In this document: positions 7,858-23,815 of the stretch, one piece after another
Position numbering within the stretch: position 1 is the first letter of the stretch
Layout of the letters: each line of letters begins with the position of its first letter
Origin: a virus
Direction: 5' to 3' (one strand)
Virus record (IMG/VR): IMGVR_UViG_3300040815_001330
Span: 1-23,815 of that record
DNA length: 23,815 bases
Position numbers and translations under genes: made by a program
The notes under the pieces: generated by a model
The model's input: only the letters and a program-made list of their open reading frames with translations
Database searches by the model: none
Told to the model about the DNA's origin: nothing

Positions 7858-8064
7858 ATGCTGAAGAAAATAGGACAAAATGACCTAAAAGAAGAATATA
7901 GAATATTCTTTATGGTCAAAGGTCACCTCGACGCATCACCTCAAACAGTTATGGAATGTTATAACGGATACTTCAATCGCCTTTGGCGTGACGGAGCCGA
8001 TGGTGGACCTCTTTATGAATATGATGAACAGTTTGAACACGCCTGGGAGAAAAAAGTATGGTAA
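7858..8064 (+). CDS. Hypothetical protein
   Basis: A 68-residue protein with aromatic-rich helices (EEYRIFFMVKGHLDAS, YNGYFNRLWRDGADGG). There is no convincing Shine-Dalgarno; instead AGTAAATA ends four bases before the ATG, a spacing also seen at 13401 and 20210 and discussed as a finding. The stop overlaps the next gene by seven bases. No family recognised. Its place just ahead of the tmRNA gives no functional hint. Confidence 0.65.
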   Translation: MLKKIGQNDLKEEYRIFFMVKGHLDASPQTVMECYNGYFNRLWRDGADGGPLYEYDEQFEHAWEKKVW

Positions 8065-8270
8065 CCTCGAAAATAGCGCAACTTAGCGAAACAGATTTAG
8101 ATTATCTAGATCAACTACTACATCGAGAGTTTTCAAAGCAGTGCAACAACAGCACACAATGGAAAACAAAGAACAATAGCACCTATCCATACGACAACTC
8201 CAAACAACTTGTAAGATTAATGGACGCTGTTCGCAGTCAAAAAAAACTCTTGACAATGCCCAAATGGTAG
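8058..8270 (+). CDS. Hypothetical protein
   Basis: A 70-residue protein that overlaps the preceding gene by seven bases. The first 30 residues form a helix with spaced leucines (SETDLDYLDQLLHREFSKQC), followed by a polar Asn/Thr-rich stretch and a basic C-terminal helix (LVRLMDAVRSQKKLLTMPKW). The -35 box and spacer of the tmRNA promoter lie inside its last codons, which fixes those codons for a second purpose. No function can be assigned. Confidence 0.65.
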   Translation: MVTSKIAQLSETDLDYLDQLLHREFSKQCNNSTQWKTKNNSTYPYDNSKQLVRLMDAVRSQKKLLTMPKW

Positions 8271-8280
8271 TGTATAAATA
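8250..8280 (+). promoter_or_regulatory. Promoter of the tmRNA gene, sigma70 and T4-late boxes superimposed
   Basis: TTGACA (8250-8255), 17-base spacer, TATAAA (8273-8278), giving a near-consensus sigma70 promoter about 20 bases ahead of the acceptor piece. The same -10 continues as TATAAATA (8273-8280), the exact T4 late promoter box, so the gene could be transcribed both early by host polymerase and late by a gp55-type sigma. Confidence 0.75.
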
Positions 8281-8346
8281 GTATTGTAACGTTGAAGCAA
8301 TTCAAACGACATTCTGGACCCGGGGGCGGTACCCGGCGACTCCACC

Positions 8347-8409
8347 AAAAATACATTCTGCTTACTGTATAGCAGAAGCAACAGGCTGATAAACTGGGAA
8401 TGTATTTTT
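8347..8409 (+). other. tmRNA intervening segment with 12-bp processing stem
   Basis: AAAAATACATTC (8347-8358) and GAATGTATTTTT (8398-8409) are perfect complements, so the segment between acceptor and coding pieces folds back directly on the acceptor end. A second hairpin (CTGCT/AGCAG, 8358-8362 and 8371-8375) lies inside. In permuted tmRNA genes this segment is removed to give two RNAs. Confidence 0.85.
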
Positions 8410-8500
8410 GATGGGGTCGAAATAGGATCGACAGGTGTTTAATAGGGTTAGTGGAGTTACCGGGATGTAAGCGCCGTTACCGCGAACAAACATTCTAAAT

Positions 8501-8542
8501 GCAAACGCAAATAGAGCGCCAGAAATGGCAATGGCAGCCTAA
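8501..8542 (+). other. tmRNA tag reading frame (ANANRAPEMAMAA)
   Basis: Fourteen codons from resume codon GCA to TAA encode ANANRAPEMAMAA. With the alanine carried by tmRNA the full tag has 14 residues, the same length as the Caulobacter tag, and it shares the AN-N start. It ends MAMAA where many tags end in LAA or VAA. Confidence 0.9.
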
Positions 8543-8590
8543 GTAAAAGGCTTCCGGGGTTAGAGGAGCCCCTAGCAACAGAATGCTCCT

Positions 8591-8613
8591 CACTGCTACA
8601 CTTTAACGCAGTG
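8591..8613 (+). terminator. Hairpin after tmRNA, probable terminator
   Basis: CACTGC (8591-8596) pairs with GCAGTG (8608-8613), followed by a short T-rich run (TCTTTACTT). It could be the tmRNA terminator or the last stem of the precursor. Confidence 0.5.
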
Positions 8614-8620
8614 TCTTTAC

Positions 8621-8649
8621 TTGACTTTACACTTTTTCCATGCTATATA
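8621..8649 (+). promoter_or_regulatory. Sigma70-type promoter behind the tmRNA
   Basis: TTGACT (8621-8626), 17-base spacer ending in TGC, TATATA (8644-8649) with TATAAT overlapping three bases on. It should drive the membrane-protein genes from 8677 and possibly the pseudoazurin gene. Confidence 0.75.
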
Positions 8650-8676
8650 TAATACACACACAAAAAAGGATTTATT

Positions 8677-9039
8677 ATGAATACCTCTCCAAAGCCCATT
8701 GGTTGGGCAACTACTATCTCAACACTAGCTGCTATTCCTAAAGACATGTGGGACAGCGTAATGACCATTGAAAAATCACCACTACGCAACTTAGACCCTA
8801 TGGTAGCACATATGATTTTCCAGTGTCTATTCTTTATCTGGAGCGGCTTGTTTGCTGTGATGATCGGCAGCTATATGGCGTTTGGCATTAGTGCAGTATT
8901 CCATATGGCTCTTATCACTGGTGTAACACTTACAGCAGTGACATTCCGTCAAGCAGAAAACAATCCAGAATCAATCAACAAACTGCTCAAGAGCGGTAAA
9001 AAGTATAACGGTCGAGCAGCAGATGGAGAACATGTATAA
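8677..9039 (+). CDS. Inner-membrane protein, two transmembrane helices
   Basis: A 120-residue protein with two hydrophobic segments, roughly residues 46-65 (MIFQCLFFIWSGLFAVMIGS) and 67-88 (AFGISAVFHMALITGVTLTA), separated by a very short turn, so a helical hairpin with both ends on the same side. The N-terminus (PIGWATTISTLAAIPKDMWD) is amphipathic and the C-terminus is basic and polar. AAGGA precedes the start. The hairpin size would fit a holin-like or host-membrane effector, but there is no specific motif. Its stop overlaps the following small membrane gene (TAATG). Confidence 0.75.
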   Translation: MNTSPKPIGWATTISTLAAIPKDMWDSVMTIEKSPLRNLDPMVAHMIFQCLFFIWSGLFAVMIGSYMAFGISAVFHMALITGVTLTAVTFRQAENNPESINKLLKSGKKYNGRAADGEHV

Positions 9040-9191
9040 TGTTTAAAGGACTAGCACTATCATTTTTCGTTATAATTCTGATGTTTACAGTAGTACCCAT
9101 TGGCATAACTATACTCACCTTGGGTGTAGATGAATATGCTAGTAACTGCAAGCAAGCAATTCATATGCCATGTTTTGGTTTAAGCGAATGA
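9039..9191 (+). CDS. Small single-pass membrane protein (50 residues)
   Basis: A short gene starting at ATG 9039, one base inside the previous stop (TAATG), ending at TGA 9189-9191. Residues 4-30 are hydrophobic (GLALSFFVIILMFTVVPIGI onward), followed by a short polar tail with two cysteines (EYASNCKQAIHMPCFGLSE). It fills what would otherwise be a 130-base gap and is coupled to genes on both sides (its stop forms ATGA with an ATG at 9188). Coding status rests on this packing and on the clean membrane segment; no family recognised. Confidence 0.6.
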   Translation: MFKGLALSFFVIILMFTVVPIGITILTLGVDEYASNCKQAIHMPCFGLSE

Positions 9192-10164: not shown

Positions 10165-10959
10165 ATGCGTAATGTATTTATTACAACAGTAGCCGCTATG
10201 GCTATTTCAACAGCAGCATTTGCTGAAGACACAGCAACTCCAGTAATGGGTCCTGTTATCTCAGGTGAAGTATCACTTGACTTTGCTGAAACAGCAAACG
10301 ACAAAATTGGCGGAACAATGGGTCTTGACCTAGGTGTAGACGTAAGTGGAATGGCAACTGTAGATTTAGACTTTAGTGCAACAGACGGCAACTCTGTAAC
10401 ATTAGACAACTGGACAGTTGGTACAACAATGGGTACTATAGCAATGGCATTTGGTGATGACAATGGTGTAATGCCAGGCGCTGAAGGTGAGCAAACACTA
10501 GCAGCACCAGCAATGACTGAGTCACTACAAGTAACAACAGGTGCAGTAAGTGTAGCAGTTGGTCTTACAGACTGGACAACAGACATCACAGACGTAAGCA
10601 ACATTCAAGGCGCTTACACATTGAACGTAGCAAACCTAGATGTAACAGCAGCAGCTGACTACAACTTGGACAGTGAAAACACAGTACTAGGTGCAGGTGT
10701 AGGTGGACTAGACTTAGGCGTAGCATCACTAGGCGGCGCAATGACTTACGATGTAGATGGTGAAACATTTGGTTTTGAAGGTGTAGCAACAACAGGTGGC
10801 TTAACAGCATACCTAAACGGTGACGACACAGATGCACTACAAAACATCGGTGGTGAGTATGAAGTAAATGTAAATGGTGCAACATTTACAGCAGGTGCAA
10901 ACTATAACATCGATACAGAAGACTTTGCTCCAACAGCAAGCATTGGCTTTGCATTCTAA
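10165..10959 (+). CDS. Outer-membrane beta-barrel, porin-like
   Basis: A 264-residue protein with a clear signal peptide (MRNVFITTVAAMAISTAAFA, cut before ED). The mature chain is a succession of short amphipathic beta strands rich in Gly, Ala, Thr, Asp and Asn, with alternating hydrophobic residues (GAMTYDVDGETFGFEGVATT). It ends TASIGFAF with a terminal Phe, the signal read by the BAM machinery for outer-membrane insertion. Length and composition are those of a small alphaproteobacterial porin. It is very acidic and has no Cys. AAAGGA precedes the start, and strong terminators flank the gene on both sides, so it is a single-gene transcript. A phage could use it to replace a host porin, alter uptake or block superinfection; the role is inferred. 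Confidence 0.82.
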   Translation: MRNVFITTVAAMAISTAAFAEDTATPVMGPVISGEVSLDFAETANDKIGGTMGLDLGVDVSGMATVDLDFSATDGNSVTLDNWTVGTTMGTIAMAFGDDNGVMPGAEGEQTLAAPAMTESLQVTTGAVSVAVGLTDWTTDITDVSNIQGAYTLNVANLDVTAAADYNLDSENTVLGAGVGGLDLGVASLGGAMTYDVDGETFGFEGVATTGGLTAYLNGDDTDALQNIGGEYEVNVNGATFTAGANYNIDTEDFAPTASIGFAF

Positions 10960-17586: not shown

Positions 17587-17886
17587 ATGAGCGCAGATGT
17601 AAAACTAGATGAACGAATTAAAATTGATTTTAATGAACCAAAGAAATATAAAGTAATATTTTTAAATGACGATACTACTCCTATGGAGTTTGTTATTGAT
17701 GTATTAGTTAATATTTTTAAACATACACCAGATAGTGCTATGCAAATAACCATGCAAGTACACGAAGAAGGCAGTGGTGTTGTTGGTGTGTATTCACACG
17801 AAGTTGCTGAAATGAAAACAACTGAAACAGTAATCCTATCACGAAATCACGGATTTCATTTACAAATCAAGTTAGAGGAAGAATGA
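17587..17886 (+). CDS. clpS: ClpS-like adaptor of the ClpAP protease
   Basis: A 99-residue adaptor that delivers N-degron proteins to ClpAP and lowers ClpAP turnover of ssrA-tagged proteins in E. coli. The N-end pocket is intact: N27-D28-D29 (FLNDDTTPMEFV), M33 and H59 (MQVHEEG), equal to E. coli N34-D35-D36, M40 and H66. The fold continues through GVVGVYSHEVAEMKTTETVI. The N-terminal extension (SADVKLDERIKIDFNEPK) is short and acidic, as in ClpS. AGGAG precedes the ATG. It overlaps the heme oxygenase start (ATGA), so both are made together. A phage that also encodes tmRNA has reason to steer host proteolysis. Confidence 0.92.
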   Translation: MSADVKLDERIKIDFNEPKKYKVIFLNDDTTPMEFVIDVLVNIFKHTPDSAMQITMQVHEEGSGVVGVYSHEVAEMKTTETVILSRNHGFHLQIKLEEE

Positions 17887-18422
17887 GCAAACTTAAAGAA
17901 CTTACCTGGGCTAATCACCAGAAAGCAGAACGTACAGAACATGCCCGCAAACTGCTACACGGCATGACACCAGAAGAGTATCATAGATATTTGTACAATC
18001 AATATGTAATGTATGCTGTGCTGGAAAGCCAAGCAAAAACATATGGCGTATTAGAAGGCATTGAAGATATTGCAAGAGCAGATGCAATCCGTGCAGACGT
18101 TGAAGAACTAGAAACTGCACATGGTATTGAACGCAACGGAGACTTGCTGTGTCAAGTTGTTGCAGACTATACAGACTATTGTATGCACATGAAAGACCGA
18201 GAAGAGTTTCTAGCACACTTGTATGTACGTCACTTTGGTGATATGTATGGCGGCCAAATGATTAAAAAGCGTAATCCAGGCAGCGGCAAGATGTATGAGT
18301 TTAATAATGTAGAAGAACTAAAAACTACAGTACGTGCTATGCTTACAGACGACATGGCAGATGAAGCAAACACATGTTTTGAGTTTGCAATGCAACTATT
18401 TGAGGAGTTAGACAGTGAGTGA
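17883..18422 (+). CDS. Heme oxygenase (biliverdin-forming)
   Basis: Opens heme to biliverdin, CO and iron using reduced ferredoxin. 179 residues; all-helical HO fold. The proximal heme ligand is H12 in LTWANHQKAERTEHARKLLH, and the distal helix carries the glycine motif HFGDMYGGQM (GDLSGGQ in cyanobacterial HO1). PEEYHRYLYNQYVMYAVLES is the usual second helix. It is somewhat shorter than cyanobacterial HO1, as phage versions tend to be. It starts inside the ClpS stop (ATGA) and ends eight bases inside the bilin reductase gene, so clpS, ho and the reductase form one coupled unit. The product biliverdin is the substrate of the next enzyme. Confidence 0.94.
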   Translation: MSKLKELTWANHQKAERTEHARKLLHGMTPEEYHRYLYNQYVMYAVLESQAKTYGVLEGIEDIARADAIRADVEELETAHGIERNGDLLCQVVADYTDYCMHMKDREEFLAHLYVRHFGDMYGGQMIKKRNPGSGKMYEFNNVEELKTTVRAMLTDDMADEANTCFEFAMQLFEELDSE

Positions 18423-19101
18423 AGTTTGGGATACACTGATTAAAATACAAGATAGATTGATCGAACGTTTTGATGCAACTGGTCAAGAATACAACGAAAT
18501 AGGCATGGATAGATTTAATCAACCAGGTTGGATCAACCGTGTATGGACCAGTGAGAACTATCGTAGAGCCCACATTGACGTAGTTGATGCACGAGACAGC
18601 AAAGGTTTGTGGATGATGCATTGCTGTGTGTTTCCTCACTTGGACAATGACGGTCCTATCTTTGGATTAGATGTTATTGCAGGTAAAAACAAAATCACAG
18701 GTTACTTCCATGATTACTCTCCAACGTCTTTGGAGTATCATGAAATGATTGAAGCATTCGGAGATGAAGTAGCAAAACTAGAATGGCGCAAGCCACGTGA
18801 ATTACCAGAATGGGCAAAGGCTATATTTACTGAACATATGGTTGCAGCAGGTAATGTAAACAGCACTGAAGAACTAGAACAACTTGTGGAACTAAGTTTT
18901 GACAGTATTGACAACTATTTAGAATACATTGGTTCCTACAACGGAACAGGTAAAGAAGAAGCAGGCAAAGCAGCACAAAATCGTTATGCACATTATCAAA
19001 AACAAAATCCACATACTCCTAAAACAATGACCAGTTTAGGACTTGACGAAGAGGATGTAAGAGTATTCGTACAAGAATGTTTATTTCCTGATATCGAATA
19101 A
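18415..19101 (+). CDS. pcyX: Ferredoxin-dependent bilin reductase, PcyX/PebS-like
   Basis: 228 residues from GTG 18415, supported by AGGAG at 18403-18407. FDBR features: ENYRRAHIDVVDARDSKGLW, then MMHCCVFPHLDNDGPIFGLD with H69 and D86 at the positions of the catalytic His and Asp of the family, ITGYFHDYSP, and the C-terminal block YAHYQKQNPHTPK ending VQECLFP. These enzymes reduce biliverdin to phycobilins; cyanophage PebS makes phycoerythrobilin in two steps. Phage reductases outside the cyanophages, called PcyX and thought to come from alphaproteobacterial phages, also make phycoerythrobilin. Context here (permuted tmRNA, SAR11-like gene set) argues for PcyX over PebS. The exact product cannot be read from sequence. 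Confidence 0.88.
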   Translation: MSEVWDTLIKIQDRLIERFDATGQEYNEIGMDRFNQPGWINRVWTSENYRRAHIDVVDARDSKGLWMMHCCVFPHLDNDGPIFGLDVIAGKNKITGYFHDYSPTSLEYHEMIEAFGDEVAKLEWRKPRELPEWAKAIFTEHMVAAGNVNSTEELEQLVELSFDSIDNYLEYIGSYNGTGKEEAGKAAQNRYAHYQKQNPHTPKTMTSLGLDEEDVRVFVQECLFPDIE

Positions 19102-20209: not shown

Positions 20210-20683
20210 ATGCGCAATACTTTTATCATATCAATGAGTTGGTTGTTTATAAGTAGCTCAATAGTTTCAGCTGATTTAGTACATGAATTCAAATCGCCAG
20301 CATTTAGTGGGACTGGATACAGTGCCCATATGCTAAGTCAAGAACAGCTCACATTTAATCGACGTAAGGACATTGATGATAAGGCGCAGCGTGAAGCTGA
20401 TCGTTTAGAGCGTGAGCTAGAAAACACAGTTCTCAACAAGTTTATACGTAATCTTGAGTCACGTATATATGCAACACTCTCTAAGCAAATGGTGGACAAT
20501 ATGTTTGCAGCATGTGGAGAAGAAGATCAACCAGCATGTGCTAACACTGGCACAACTGAAGTTGAAGGTGCTACGATTACATGGACCAAAGATGAAACTG
20601 ATGGTAGTATCACACTTGTTATAGACGGCCCAGATGGCTATACAGAGATTACTATTCCAGGCGCTGGGGAGTTTAACTTTTGA
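20210..20683 (+). CDS. csgF: CsgF-like curli assembly protein
   Basis: 157 residues with signal peptide (FIISMSWLFISSSIVSA, cut before DLVHEF). The mature start DLVHEFKSPAFSGTGYSAHM matches CsgF, whose N-terminus (TFQFRNPNFGGNP-like) plugs into the CsgG pore; the aromatic-Gly-rich stretch and the following helix (AQREADRLERELENTVLNKF) and ITWTKDETDGSITLVIDGPD sheet also fit. E. coli CsgF is 138 residues. It couples CsgG to the nucleator at the cell surface. A CACG-type pair of cysteines (AACGEEDQPACAN) is an addition. The start has no Shine-Dalgarno but GGTAAATA ends five bases before. csgG follows in a TTGA overlap. Confidence 0.87.
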   Translation: MRNTFIISMSWLFISSSIVSADLVHEFKSPAFSGTGYSAHMLSQEQLTFNRRKDIDDKAQREADRLERELENTVLNKFIRNLESRIYATLSKQMVDNMFAACGEEDQPACANTGTTEVEGATITWTKDETDGSITLVIDGPDGYTEITIPGAGEFNF

Positions 20684-21465
20684 AGTATCTATCTTTCATA
20701 GCAGTATTATTCCTTGCTGGATGTGCAAGCATGGGTCAAGTTCCTAAAACGCTACAACAACCAGCAAAACTACAATCCAATCCAATGGTAGAAGAACTAA
20801 ATGATCTAAAGCCATTAAATGGTCCAGTGATGACAGTAGGATTATATAGTTTTACTGACAAAACTGGGCAGCGTAAACCAGCAGACAATGTTGCTAACCT
20901 ATCTAGTGCAGTAACACAAGGTGCAGAAGTTTGGGTAATAGATGCACTATTACAAGCAGGTGAAGGTACTTGGTTTGAAGTAGTAGAACGTTCGGGCATG
21001 GACAATATAATCCGTGAAAGACAGCTGATACGCAACACTAGAGAAAACTACGAAAAAGAAAATGCAACTCCTCTAGCACCAATGAAGTTTGCAGGCATAC
21101 TTATCGAAGGTGGCATTGTAGGATATGATAGTAATGTGACCACAGGCGGCAATGGTGCTATGTATTTGGGCATCGGAACAGCAGCAGAGTATAGAGTTGA
21201 CACAGTAACCGTAGCAATGCGTTTGGTCAGTGTTAGCACAGGTAGAGTGTTAGTAAGTGTAGCAGCAGAAAAATCAATAGCAAGTTATAGACAAGGTGCT
21301 AATGCATTTAAGTTCTTAGAGTTAGGCACAGAAGTTTTAGAGATTGAAACAGGATATAGTGTTAACGAACCAACCAACTATGCAGTTCGTGAAGCTATTG
21401 AAGCAGCAGTAATAGAATTAATCTATCAAGGTGCAGATCAAAACTTATGGCAATTCAAAGAATGA
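20680..21465 (+). CDS. csgG: CsgG-like curli secretion lipoprotein (outer-membrane pore)
   Basis: 261 residues from TTG 20680 (TTGA overlap with csgF; GGGGAG at 20666-20671 supports it). Signal peptide and lipobox FLAGC, so C15 is lipidated. It tracks CsgG: MTVGLYSFTDKTGQRKPADN, SSAVTQGAEVWVIDALLQAG, WFEVVERSGMDNIIRERQLI, ILIEGGIVGYDSN, TVTVAMRLVSVSTGRVLVSV, and the C-terminal NYAVREAIEAAVIELI. CsgG forms a nine-fold ring with a 36-strand barrel and a constriction that passes unfolded curlin. The E. coli constriction residues Tyr51, Asn55 and Phe56 align to a region (RKPADNVANLSSAV) with N73-L74 and no aromatic, so the channel may differ. The last 28 bases overlap the convergent regulator gene. 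Confidence 0.93.
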   Translation: MKYLSFIAVLFLAGCASMGQVPKTLQQPAKLQSNPMVEELNDLKPLNGPVMTVGLYSFTDKTGQRKPADNVANLSSAVTQGAEVWVIDALLQAGEGTWFEVVERSGMDNIIRERQLIRNTRENYEKENATPLAPMKFAGILIEGGIVGYDSNVTTGGNGAMYLGIGTAAEYRVDTVTVAMRLVSVSTGRVLVSVAAEKSIASYRQGANAFKFLELGTEVLEIETGYSVNEPTNYAVREAIEAAVIELIYQGADQNLWQFKE

Positions 21466-21740
21466 TTATAGCGTTTTATTTTTGCTAGTAATGTTTCTCG
21501 TTTAATACCCAATCGTCGAGCAGCATGTGTACGATTTCCGTTAGATTCAGTTAGTGCCTTTGAAATCTTATCTATTACAAAGTCATCTACCTCATTGTGC
21601 AAACAATATTCAGTTTGATCATTGTTCGTTTCAGCTCCTACTTCGCCCCAAAGTTCATCAAATGTTTCCCAAAAGGCCTGCTGTTCTTTGTGTGTTTGTT
21701 CTGCTTTTTTAAGTGCTTTCATGATTAATCTTAATTCCAT
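21438..21740 (-). CDS. Fis-type helix-turn-helix regulator, only minus-strand gene
   Basis: 100 residues read on the minus strand from ATG 21740-21738; a second in-frame ATG begins at 21722. The C-terminal part DKISKALTESNGNRTHAARR then LGIKRETLLAKIKRYN is a Fis / NtrC-type HTH_8: helix, the NRTxAARxLGI turn, recognition helix. The N-terminal half (ALKKAEQTHKEQQAFWETFD) is a charged helix, so it lacks the receiver and AAA domains of NtrC. It overlaps csgG tail-to-tail by 28 bases and faces the curlin gene head-to-head across 111 bases with a palindrome and divergent late-type boxes. Best read as a local regulator of the curli-like cluster; direct evidence is lacking. Confidence 0.85.
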   Translation of the reverse strand: MELRLIMKALKKAEQTHKEQQAFWETFDELWGEVGAETNNDQTEYCLHNEVDDFVIDKISKALTESNGNRTHAARRLGIKRETLLAKIKRYNHSLNCHKF

Positions 21741-21756
21741 TATGTATGCCTTTTAC

Positions 21757-21772
21757 TGTAAATATATTTACA
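21757..21772. promoter_or_regulatory. 16-bp perfect palindrome, candidate operator
   Basis: TGTAAATATATTTACA reads the same on both strands. It lies between the regulator start and its predicted -10 box, close to the expected transcription start on the minus strand, where a bound dimer would block it. A second weaker dyad (TAAATA and TATTTA, six bases apart) follows at 21775-21792. Confidence 0.65.
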
Positions 21773-21785
21773 CTAAATATAAGTG

Positions 21786-21793
21786 TATTTATA
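21786..21793 (-). promoter_or_regulatory. T4-type late promoter box (TATAAATA), minus strand
   Basis: Plus-strand TATTTATA is TATAAATA on the minus strand, the exact T4 late consensus, 45 bases ahead of the regulator ATG. Confidence 0.55.
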
Positions 21794-21807
21794 GAAGTGA
21801 AGGTTCA

Positions 21808-21815
21808 TATAAATA
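21808..21815 (+). promoter_or_regulatory. T4-type late promoter box (TATAAATA), curlin gene
   Basis: Exact TATAAATA followed by C, 36 bases before the curlin ATG at 21852, with GGAGGG at 21841-21846 as ribosome site. Together with the minus-strand box it makes a divergent late-type pair 14 bases apart. Confidence 0.6.
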
Positions 21816-21851
21816 CAGGTAGAAGATATTATTTTCTTCTGGAGGGCAGAT

Positions 21852-22610
21852 ATGAAAGCATATTCTATATTATTAGCTATGGCATTAAGCATTACGGTGT
21901 TTTCAGTACGAGCTAACGAGATATACATAACACAAATCGGTGACACACTGGATTTAGACATAACACAGGACGGTCTTGACAACGAGTTTGGTGACAGTAC
22001 TACTGATGCTGGACTCTACGGAGATAGTATGGTTTTTAGTATTACACAAACTGGAGACTATAACACCATAGACGCTATTATTGCAGGCGACAGCTACACA
22101 GGAACTTGGCAGTTTACTGGCAACAGCAACAATGTCGACTTACTTTGTAATAGTTCTGCTACTACAGGCGGCGGCAACTGTGATAATGTACAACTTGATA
22201 TCACTACAACAGGTGACTCAAATACGTTTGACTTCAAAATAGGTGAAACCAACGATGCTGGTAATGCTACTATAACATTTACTGTTGATGGCGATGGCAA
22301 CCTAGTTGATATGGACTTGGATGGTACTGATGCTAACATCACTGTCACAATAGATAACAGTGCAAATACAGCTGTCGCAGGACAAACTATTACAAGTGCT
22401 ACTGATTCAACACTAACTGCTAACTCACCGGGCAATATTATTGACTTATCCATAAGTGGCGATGGCGACAGCTTAGGACACACTGTAACACTAGATATCA
22501 CCGGAGGAGCAAATATCTATACGATTACACAAAGTGGTATCTATGACAACTTAGTAGATATTACTTCAACTGGGGACGGAAACACAGTTGATATTACGCA
22601 ATCCGACTAA
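21852..22610 (+). CDS. Curlin-like amyloid subunit (CsgA/CsgB type)
   Basis: 252 residues; signal peptide 1-21 (SILLAMALSITVFSVRA), mature start NEIYITQIGD. The mature chain is made of curlin-type repeats, G-x-x-N-x-x-x-I-x-Q-x-G, here Asp-rich: YITQIGDTLDLDITQDGLDN, VFSITQTGDYNTIDAIIAGD, then less regular Thr/Asp units, and YTITQSGIYDNLVDITSTGD GNTVDITQSD at the end. Repeat spacing in the middle is irregular, and the two Cys in LLCNSSATTGGGNC are unlike E. coli curlins; they may form a disulphide. Strongly acidic. Secreted through CsgG/CsgF it should form surface amyloid. Ribosome site GGAGG is excellent. The FecR-protein gene starts inside its last codons. Confidence 0.88.
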   Translation: MKAYSILLAMALSITVFSVRANEIYITQIGDTLDLDITQDGLDNEFGDSTTDAGLYGDSMVFSITQTGDYNTIDAIIAGDSYTGTWQFTGNSNNVDLLCNSSATTGGGNCDNVQLDITTTGDSNTFDFKIGETNDAGNATITFTVDGDGNLVDMDLDGTDANITVTIDNSANTAVAGQTITSATDSTLTANSPGNIIDLSISGDGDSLGHTVTLDITGGANIYTITQSGIYDNLVDITSTGDGNTVDITQSD

Positions 22611-23718
22611 ACTTTTATGTATAATATTCTTTGCGCTGGCATTTGCAGATATGGCCAATGCAGTTCCTATTGGCGAGATTGCCGAATCTAAAGGCTCGAG
22701 TACAATCAAGCGAGACAAAGAAGCATACACAGGCGAAGTAGGGCTTGGATTACAAATGAACGATAATGTTGTAACAGGCAAAGGCAGACTAAGATTAGAC
22801 TTTATAGACGATACTAGAGTTGATGTAACAGAAAACTCACGTATGACTATTGATGAATTTATATATGACCCTGCTACACAAAAAGGTGCATTGTCAATGA
22901 AAGCAACACTAGGTGCAGTGAGATATGCTAGTGGACAAATAGCAAAAAATAGTAGACAAAGAGTAAACATACGCACACCCAGTGCAACCATCAACGTGCG
23001 TGGCACAGACTTTATGATGATTGTAGACGAGATCGGCGGCAGTATGGTCACACTATTGCCCAGTTGTGATATGAGTGGTGCTTGTGTAATAGGTGAGATT
23101 GAAGTAGAATCAGATGCTGGCACAGTTATAATGAATCAAGCATATCAAACTACCGTTGTAGCACATGCCGGAGCAACACCAGCTAGACCAGTAATACTAG
23201 ATCTCCCAGAAGATATGCTGAACTCAATGTTGATTGTTCGTAAAGTAAGTCCGTATACAGAGGAAATAGAAAAACAGTATCCAGTCACTAACTTACTAGA
23301 TATTGACTTCTTAAAGTTTGATGAACTTGATAAAGATCCACTTATTGAAAGTATCAAAAATATATGGGTCACAGATTTAGACAACACCACATACTTAGAT
23401 GAAGAGTTTTATGATGCAATGGCAAGACAGCTTGCTGAAATATTAGCACAATGGTTTGATGAACTTACTATACAAAATGCAGCATTTTTTGAAGAAAAGT
23501 TTTTTGGGTTAGACCCAGAAACAAATATTTTTTATGATGAAGAATATCCATACTATCTGTTAAGCAGAGCAGAAGGTGACCAACACTTTTTTCGCCTAAG
23601 GTTGGGCCAGGGTTATAGTTATAGTGTGGATATGGCACAAGGAGGATTTTATACTTATGGATATTTGGTGGGCGTCGGCGGTGACAACACTATTACTATT
23701 AATCAACACGACTACTAG
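22588..23718 (+). CDS. Exported FecR-domain protein with C-terminal curlin-like end
   Basis: 376 residues from TTG 22588, 23 bases inside the curlin gene. Signal peptide LLCIIFFALAFADMANA (cut before VPIG). A FecR domain follows at about 35-165: GEIAESKGSSTIKRDKEAYT, NDNVVTGKGRLRLDFIDDTR, SRMTIDEFIYDP, VNIRTPSATINVRGTDFMMI. FecR domains of this exported kind occur in periplasmic or surface proteins, without the TonB-signalling partners. Residues 200-330 are acidic and helical (YDAMARQLAEILAQWFDELT), not recognised. The last residues, VGGDNTITINQHDY, fit the curlin half repeat seen at the end of the preceding gene (GDGNTVDITQSD). This suggests a protein that can dock on, or nucleate, the fibre. 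Confidence 0.82.
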   Translation: MILRNPTKLLCIIFFALAFADMANAVPIGEIAESKGSSTIKRDKEAYTGEVGLGLQMNDNVVTGKGRLRLDFIDDTRVDVTENSRMTIDEFIYDPATQKGALSMKATLGAVRYASGQIAKNSRQRVNIRTPSATINVRGTDFMMIVDEIGGSMVTLLPSCDMSGACVIGEIEVESDAGTVIMNQAYQTTVVAHAGATPARPVILDLPEDMLNSMLIVRKVSPYTEEIEKQYPVTNLLDIDFLKFDELDKDPLIESIKNIWVTDLDNTTYLDEEFYDAMARQLAEILAQWFDELTIQNAAFFEEKFFGLDPETNIFYDEEYPYYLLSRAEGDQHFFRLRLGQGYSYSVDMAQGGFYTYGYLVGVGGDNTITINQHDY

Positions 23719-23815
23719 TAATGCAAATGAAATTTATATGTACCAAGTTGGTGACAACAATGCGTTAACCATCTTGCAAGAAGGCGACGATAATTATATC
23801 AGTGGAATACCTGGT
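23657..23815 (+). CDS. Second curlin-like protein (3' partial)
   Basis: A frame from ATG 23657 runs open to the window end. It encodes a signal peptide (WWASAVTTLLLLINTTTSNA) and a mature start NEIYMYQVGDNNALTILQEG, with GDDNYISGIPG after it: two curlin half repeats and the same NEIY start as the curlin at 21852. AAGGAGG at 23639-23645 is 11 bases upstream. It overlaps the last 62 bases of the FecR-protein gene in another frame. Its length and end lie outside the window. It may be the nucleator-like or the major subunit. Confidence 0.82.
   Translation, partial: MDIWWASAVTTLLLLINTTTSNANEIYMYQVGDNNALTILQEGDDNYISGIPG

Follow-up and report, generated by a model that had tools for sequence, protein, structure and literature searches.

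A permuted phage tmRNA gene preceded by a promoter with combined features of a host σ70 and a T4-type late promoter

The window, an IMG/VR virus record of 23,815 bases, contains a complete permuted tmRNA gene at 8286–8591 (+). Two Rfam covariance models match the locus: alpha_tmRNA (RF01849) at 8246–8592 (+) with 143.6 bits (gathering score 50, E = 1e-39) and tmRNA_permuted (RF04321) at 8286–8542 (+) with 118.8 bits (gathering score 47). ARAGORN calls a permuted tmRNA at 8254–8633 (+) with the tag ANANRAPEMAMAA. The agreement of these two independent programs confirms that the tmRNA is genuine. The original prediction of a phage-borne permuted tmRNA, for which a covariance-model search had been proposed as a check, is thus borne out in a marine-type phage record with relatives in the T4 superfamily. 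The boundaries that it gave have to be moved. The start at 8298 falls inside piece 1, ∼12 bases too far in, as the interpiece helix and the predicted transcription start lie at ∼8286, and the end at 8613 is that of a small hairpin beyond the modeled RNA, the alpha_tmRNA match ending at 8592.

The RNA assumes the permuted order, in which the acceptor stem closes both pieces (8337–8347 with 8413–8419) and the CCA is encoded. The 3′ acceptor strand CGACUCC (8337–8343) is followed by an A and by the CCA (8345–8347); it forms seven pairs with the 5′ strand GGGGUCG, including G3–U70, the alanine identity pair. The interpiece helix consists of GUAAC (8286–8290) and GUUAC (8456–8460), and the tag frame is open, with a degradation-type tail followed by a UAA stop (8540–8542). 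Both pieces, the interpiece helix, the acceptor pairing, the CCA, and the tag frame, all named in the original prediction, can be read directly in the sequence. In the precursor, a 12-bp inverted repeat (8347–8358 and 8398–8409) prolongs the acceptor helix into the intervening segment, and the fold of 8339–8425 is far stronger than that of shuffled sequences (z = −6.4). The 3′ pseudoknot of piece 2 is formed by GGGG (8556–8559) with CCCC (8569–8572) and by GAGGAGC (8563–8569) with GCTCCTC (8585–8591). A terminator after 8591 was considered and rejected, as the fold of this region is not significant (z = −1.0). The 5′ hairpin of host-form alpha tmRNAs, which was seen in the host loci examined, is absent from the window tmRNA (a gap in the Rfam alignment) and is not required in the permuted family.

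Features of the tmRNA locus and the ClpS gene in the window
Feature	Position	Strand	Basis
σ70 −35 hexamer TTGACA, within the final codons of the preceding ORF 8058–8270	8250–8255	+	Sequence; same place in 80/98 box-bearing viral tmRNA loci among the matches listed
TATAAATA, candidate combined σ70 −10 (TATAAA) and T4-type late-promoter box, 17 nt past the −35	8273–8280	+	Sequence, locus comparison
Predicted transcription start, first base of interpiece helix (late box spans −13 to −6)	8286	+	Rule from PMC1524935; helix position in 23/23 distinct sequences
tmRNA piece 1 (acceptor piece): interpiece strand 8286–8290, P2 strand, T arm, acceptor 3′ strand, discriminator A 8344, CCA	8286–8347	+	Rfam alignments, sequence
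Intervening segment, predicted to be removed on maturation	8348–8412	+	RNA fold of 8339–8425
tmRNA piece 2 (coding piece): GGGGUCG 8413–8419, P2 strand, GUUAC 8456–8460, tag frame, 3′ pseudoknot; 3′ end approximate	8413–8591	+	Rfam alpha_tmRNA to 8592, sequence
Tag frame A N A N R A P E M A M A A stop	8501–8542 (codons 8501–8539)	+	ARAGORN
Short hairpin CACTGC/GCAGTG (8591–8596/8608–8613) before TCTTTA; putative weak terminator or 3′-end signal	8591–8613	+	Sequence
ClpS adaptor gene	17587–17886	+	Pfam ClpS, 1.4e-27

The original prediction missed the promoter at 8250–8280. TTGACA-N17-TATAAA agrees with the σ70 consensus in 6/6 positions of the −35 and 5/6 positions of the −10, with a spacing within the range of 16–18 bp; a simple σ70 promoter scanner overlooked it because it demands a T at position 6 of the −10. 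The octamer TATAAATA at the same time takes the place of a T4 late box, which spans −13 to −6 of the start (PMC1524935), relative to the start predicted at 8286. Only three copies of TATAAATA occur in the window, about the number expected by chance. Two copies lie back to back at 21786–21815, between a gene for a Fis-like regulator (−) and a curlin-repeat gene (+), 45 and 36 bases before the gene starts.

We compared the locus with other viral tmRNA loci, of which a scan of IMG/VR with one exact 32-base T-arm pattern yielded at least 119. Among the matches listed, 98 of 118 viral loci have TATAAATA 25–60 bases ahead of the T arm, against ∼0.3 of 118 expected from base composition. Since these listed loci were collected with a single T-arm pattern and include related lineages, they are not independent; collapsing them at 85% identity leaves 70 clusters among the matches listed, of which 57 possess the box. 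In 44 of these 57 clusters (again among the matches listed) it is fused to a −35 at 16–18 nt, in 6 it is staggered (a separate −10 overlaps the box by a few bases), and 7 show other arrangements. The spacers vary freely (43 distinct ones among the matches listed). At the same place in bacterial tmRNA loci, the box occurs in 1 of 117, the phage-like L198. This locus, with a phage-type tmRNA and the late box, stems from a contig assigned to a Rhodobacteraceae genome bin (Water_Bin34), which is probably a phage contig. In a further 71 alphaproteobacterial loci with 28–68% GC, many of them AT-rich, no TATAAATA stands where the promoter would be. The AT-rich host controls and the composition estimate speak against the box being a product of AT-richness, and inheritance of the promoter from a host is rejected because the host loci examined, apart from L198, have no box and do have the 5′ hairpin.

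The association of the box with the tmRNA and with a −35 holds in both directions. Among TTGACA-N17 promoters with a −10-like hexamer on the same contigs, TATAAATA is used by 63 of 67 tmRNA promoters versus 2 of 179 others among the matches listed, the two exceptions both belonging to a single neighboring gene of a single phage lineage; the other promoters use TATAAT, TATTAT, TATATT, and similar hexamers. Conversely, TTGAC stands at the exact spacing in 80 of 98 tmRNA loci with TATAAATA versus 2 of 78 other TATAAATA sites among the matches listed. Those 78 sites away from the tmRNA are spread over 2.0 Mb of tmRNA contigs (both strands) and are not over-frequent, which speaks against a general scatter of late boxes, and the case therefore rests on position. 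Among tmRNA-bearing isolates, the box is absent from five loci in records not annotated as T4-like (L241–L243, L245, and L246), and the locus of Sinorhizobium phage Phosso features TTGACT with TGTAAATA. Fused or staggered early/late promoters also precede genes for a secreted 174-amino acid protein and a fatty-acid desaturase in G028, a related phage record (L267 and L263, at 159784 and 65248).

The box is also in register with the structure of the RNA. In all 23 distinct sequences, 12–13 nt separate the start of the interpiece helix from the box, counted from its first T. This is the distance of the T4 +1, and the helix start thus coincides with the predicted +1 within one base. The helix strands covary (GUAAC/GUUAC, AUAAC/GUUAU, ACAAU/GUUGU, GUAAAC/GUUUAC, and others), and shuffling of partners gives a mean of 11.8 and a maximum of 17 paired sequences versus 23/23. 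Host tmRNAs have their 5′ hairpin at this helix position, and the hairpin is absent from the phage tmRNAs. Because the helix begins at the predicted +1 and the hairpin is missing, we infer that one promoter with one start would suit an RNA with a structurally fixed 5′ end.

Other genes of these phages suggest that TATAAATA works as a late promoter there. In G004, in which gp23 and gp55 were found, it precedes portal, tail-tube, head–tail adaptor, and virion genes by 20–35 bases. Upstream of gene starts, it occurs 5 times in G004 and 13 times in G028, versus 0.67 and 4.8 for permuted octamers, and in phages HTVC008M and Melnitz it often stands directly before structural genes. The late σ factor gp55 was found in G004, G036, G041, Melnitz, and HTVC008M; the Phosso match has an in-frame stop. 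No gp55 gene lies within the 23,815 bases of the window, an incomplete record, and G028 yielded no match to gp55, gp20, or gp23; it is likewise an incomplete record, which ends soon after the terminase and sheath genes and before the place of gp55 in G004. Melnitz has a further fused promoter, TTGACT-N18-TATAAATA, before its gene for an ssDNA-binding protein (L355, about 8686). Gene 32 of T4 is expressed over a long period.

Among the genes flanking the tmRNA are those for NrdA/NrdB, glutaredoxin, PAAR, IMPDH/GMP reductase, Hsp20, ClpS, haem oxygenase, CsgG, curlin, and FecR. L089 and L051, with flanking proteins mostly 90–100% identical, and the 275-kb G028 are the nearest records. This closest large relative possesses a T4-type DNA polymerase (gp43), terminase (TerL), sheath, UvsX, UvsW, and gp41, which places the lineage in the T4 superfamily. 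No close cultured relative of locus L094 was found in the phage collection. L089 and L051 share the locus, the promoter boxes, and the flanking genes with the window and are 93% identical to it at the nucleotide level over 12 kb, yet at 8058–9170 they have a different tmRNA cassette and different small neighbors. Their tag ANANFKPELFFDFEVLEAA ends in EAA and not in a hydrophobic residue plus AA. Beyond this case, tag turnover between close relatives is mostly not seen (19 pairs with the same versus 6 with different tags).

The ClpS gene of the window sits inside a GMP reductase–Hsp20–ClpS–haem oxygenase block. ClpS is found in 10 of 51 tmRNA-bearing phage records, 8–13 kb from the tmRNA, and in 18 of 50,697 phage records searched overall. 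Besides the window, G009, G014, G020, G022, G023, G024, G028, G033, and G045 have it near the tmRNA. A joint role of ClpS and tmRNA in proteolysis is possible. Directly after the haem oxygenase gene, 18415–19101 has a PHROG match labeled ferredoxin oxidoreductase, so that the two resemble a bilin-type pathway pair. The curli-type genes (CsgG, curlin repeats, and FecR; 20210–23815) have an arrangement close to that in Melnitz and HTVC008M. An outer-membrane-like protein with no Pfam match is conserved near the tmRNA (10165–10959 in the window, 8957–9757 in L269); its copy in G028 has TATAAATA 70 bases upstream.

The tag looks host-like. Its MAMAA end had been regarded as unusual, but 21 of 106 bacterial loci, most of them from Rhodobacterales, encode ANDNRAPMAMAA, ANDNRAPVAMAA, or ANDNKAPMAMAA; the tags of Rhodobacterales hosts include ANDNRAPMAMAA and ANDNRAPVAMAA. 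Of the alphaproteobacterial host assumed in the original prediction, the alphaproteobacterial type of the RNA stands, and SAR11 as the host for comparison is rejected: the resemblance of the tag to Rhodobacterales tags suggests a host of Rhodobacterales type. The comparison with host tags, also proposed there, found none identical to ANANRAPEMAMAA among 172 host tags seen. The tags keep the A-A end, mostly with a hydrophobic residue before it. The suggestion that the phage copy can replace host trans-translation was overstated; no SmpB gene was found in the 51 tmRNA-bearing phage records, and the phage RNA would therefore depend on the SmpB of its host.

We put the probability at about two in three that the window encodes a working two-piece tmRNA of alphaproteobacterial type, belonging to a T4-superfamily phage and transcribed from one promoter that serves both host σ70 and the phage late polymerase. 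Early in infection, host σ70 RNA polymerase would read TTGACA, the 17-bp spacer, and TATAAA; once replication has started, the late polymerase, coupled to the sliding clamp, would use TATAAATA by means of a gp55-type σ factor. Both polymerases would start at the same base (∼8286), the first of the helix that joins the mature pieces, so that no 5′ leader would be made, in line with the absence of the host-type 5′ hairpin. The precursor would then fold so that its acceptor helix continues across the intervening segment, be cut by host tRNA-processing enzymes, and be charged with alanine via G3–U70. Together with host SmpB, the tmRNA may free ribosomes stalled on broken mRNAs throughout infection, appending ANANRAPEMAMAA for Clp-type proteolysis. 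In a wider sense, it seems slightly favored that T4-like phages have a dedicated fused σ70/gp55 promoter, almost exclusively at the tmRNA, which provides rescue in the early as well as the late phase of infection with a single fixed 5′ end, the tmRNA and its tag being exchangeable as a cassette between near-identical phages.

The promoter might instead be a plain strong σ70 promoter, in which TATAAATA simply serves as an efficient −10 and transcription of the tmRNA is confined to the early (or middle) phase. This was the proposal for Melnitz, whose authors assigned its tmRNA an early promoter only (PMC9004378). The perfect TTGACA and 17-bp spacing of most loci among the matches listed suit this explanation, and σ70 alone can read a TATAAA −10, so that the box does not by itself imply late transcription. 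We nevertheless consider it rather unlikely: σ70 promoters of the same build rarely contain the octamer elsewhere on these contigs (the 2 of 179 among the matches listed), and it is missing from host tmRNA promoters and from the five isolate loci in records not annotated as T4-like.

The opposite case, a late-only tmRNA for which the gp55 box matters and the −35 is decorative, would account for the L009, L025, and L035 clusters, which have TATAAATA without a good −35, but the exact spacing of TTGAC to the box at the tmRNA (80/98 versus 2/78 elsewhere, among the matches listed) makes it very improbable. Conservation of the tag frame, acceptor stem, CCA, and interpiece helix, with compensatory changes, argues for an RNA that tags proteins. 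We accordingly give hardly any credence to a passenger or decoy, that is, a host-derived RNA that does not tag proteins or that disturbs the host tmRNA, even though the CDS-less tmRNA reported for phage DS6A sets a precedent (PMC11915505), no phage SmpB was found in the 51 records, and in the closely related L089/L051 there is a different tmRNA, whose tag has the odd end EVLEAA.

A promoter that appears readable by both polymerases in many distinct tmRNA loci, among them that of a cultured phage, would imply a need for the RNA over the whole course of infection, probably for the release of ribosomes from mRNAs that takeover or host defenses have broken. The published guess is that phage tmRNAs are used early, sparing late phage proteins (PMC9004378); the putative dual promoter makes the question of why phages carry tmRNA directly testable. 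A phage-borne permuted tmRNA as such is not new: two-piece tmRNAs of Melnitz and other marine phages have been published (PMC9004378), and the tmRNA database holds 79 phage sequences (PMC11915505). No hybrid early/late promoter on a phage tmRNA was found in the literature searched, which misses most subscription papers, and the placing of the tmRNA of T4-like phages behind one promoter that looks readable by host and late machinery seems unreported.

With the two-piece tmRNA of Alphaproteobacteria (Caulobacter type, RF01849), the window RNA shares the permuted order, the GGCGGUA T loop, G3–U70, the tag design, and nearly the same tags as in Rhodobacterales. The host RNAs differ in keeping the 5′ hairpin and in their promoters, whereas the window RNA lacks the hairpin and has a shorter 3′ domain. 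The Methylophilales phage Melnitz (MZ577097; PMC9004378) has in common with the window the T4 group, a permuted alpha-type tmRNA, and the CsgG/curlin/FecR curli genes; we also see TTGACA-N17-TATAAATA before its annotated tmRNA, with the helix starting 12 nt from the box. It differs in tag, T arm, and intervening segment, in a predicted glutamine riboswitch and a gp33 gene nearby, and in its host, OM43. Phage AR9 achieves continuous expression with tandem early and late promoters (PMC5312081). There, the promoters are separate and are served by two phage polymerases, whereas in the window the putative host −10 and the late box share the same 8 bases.
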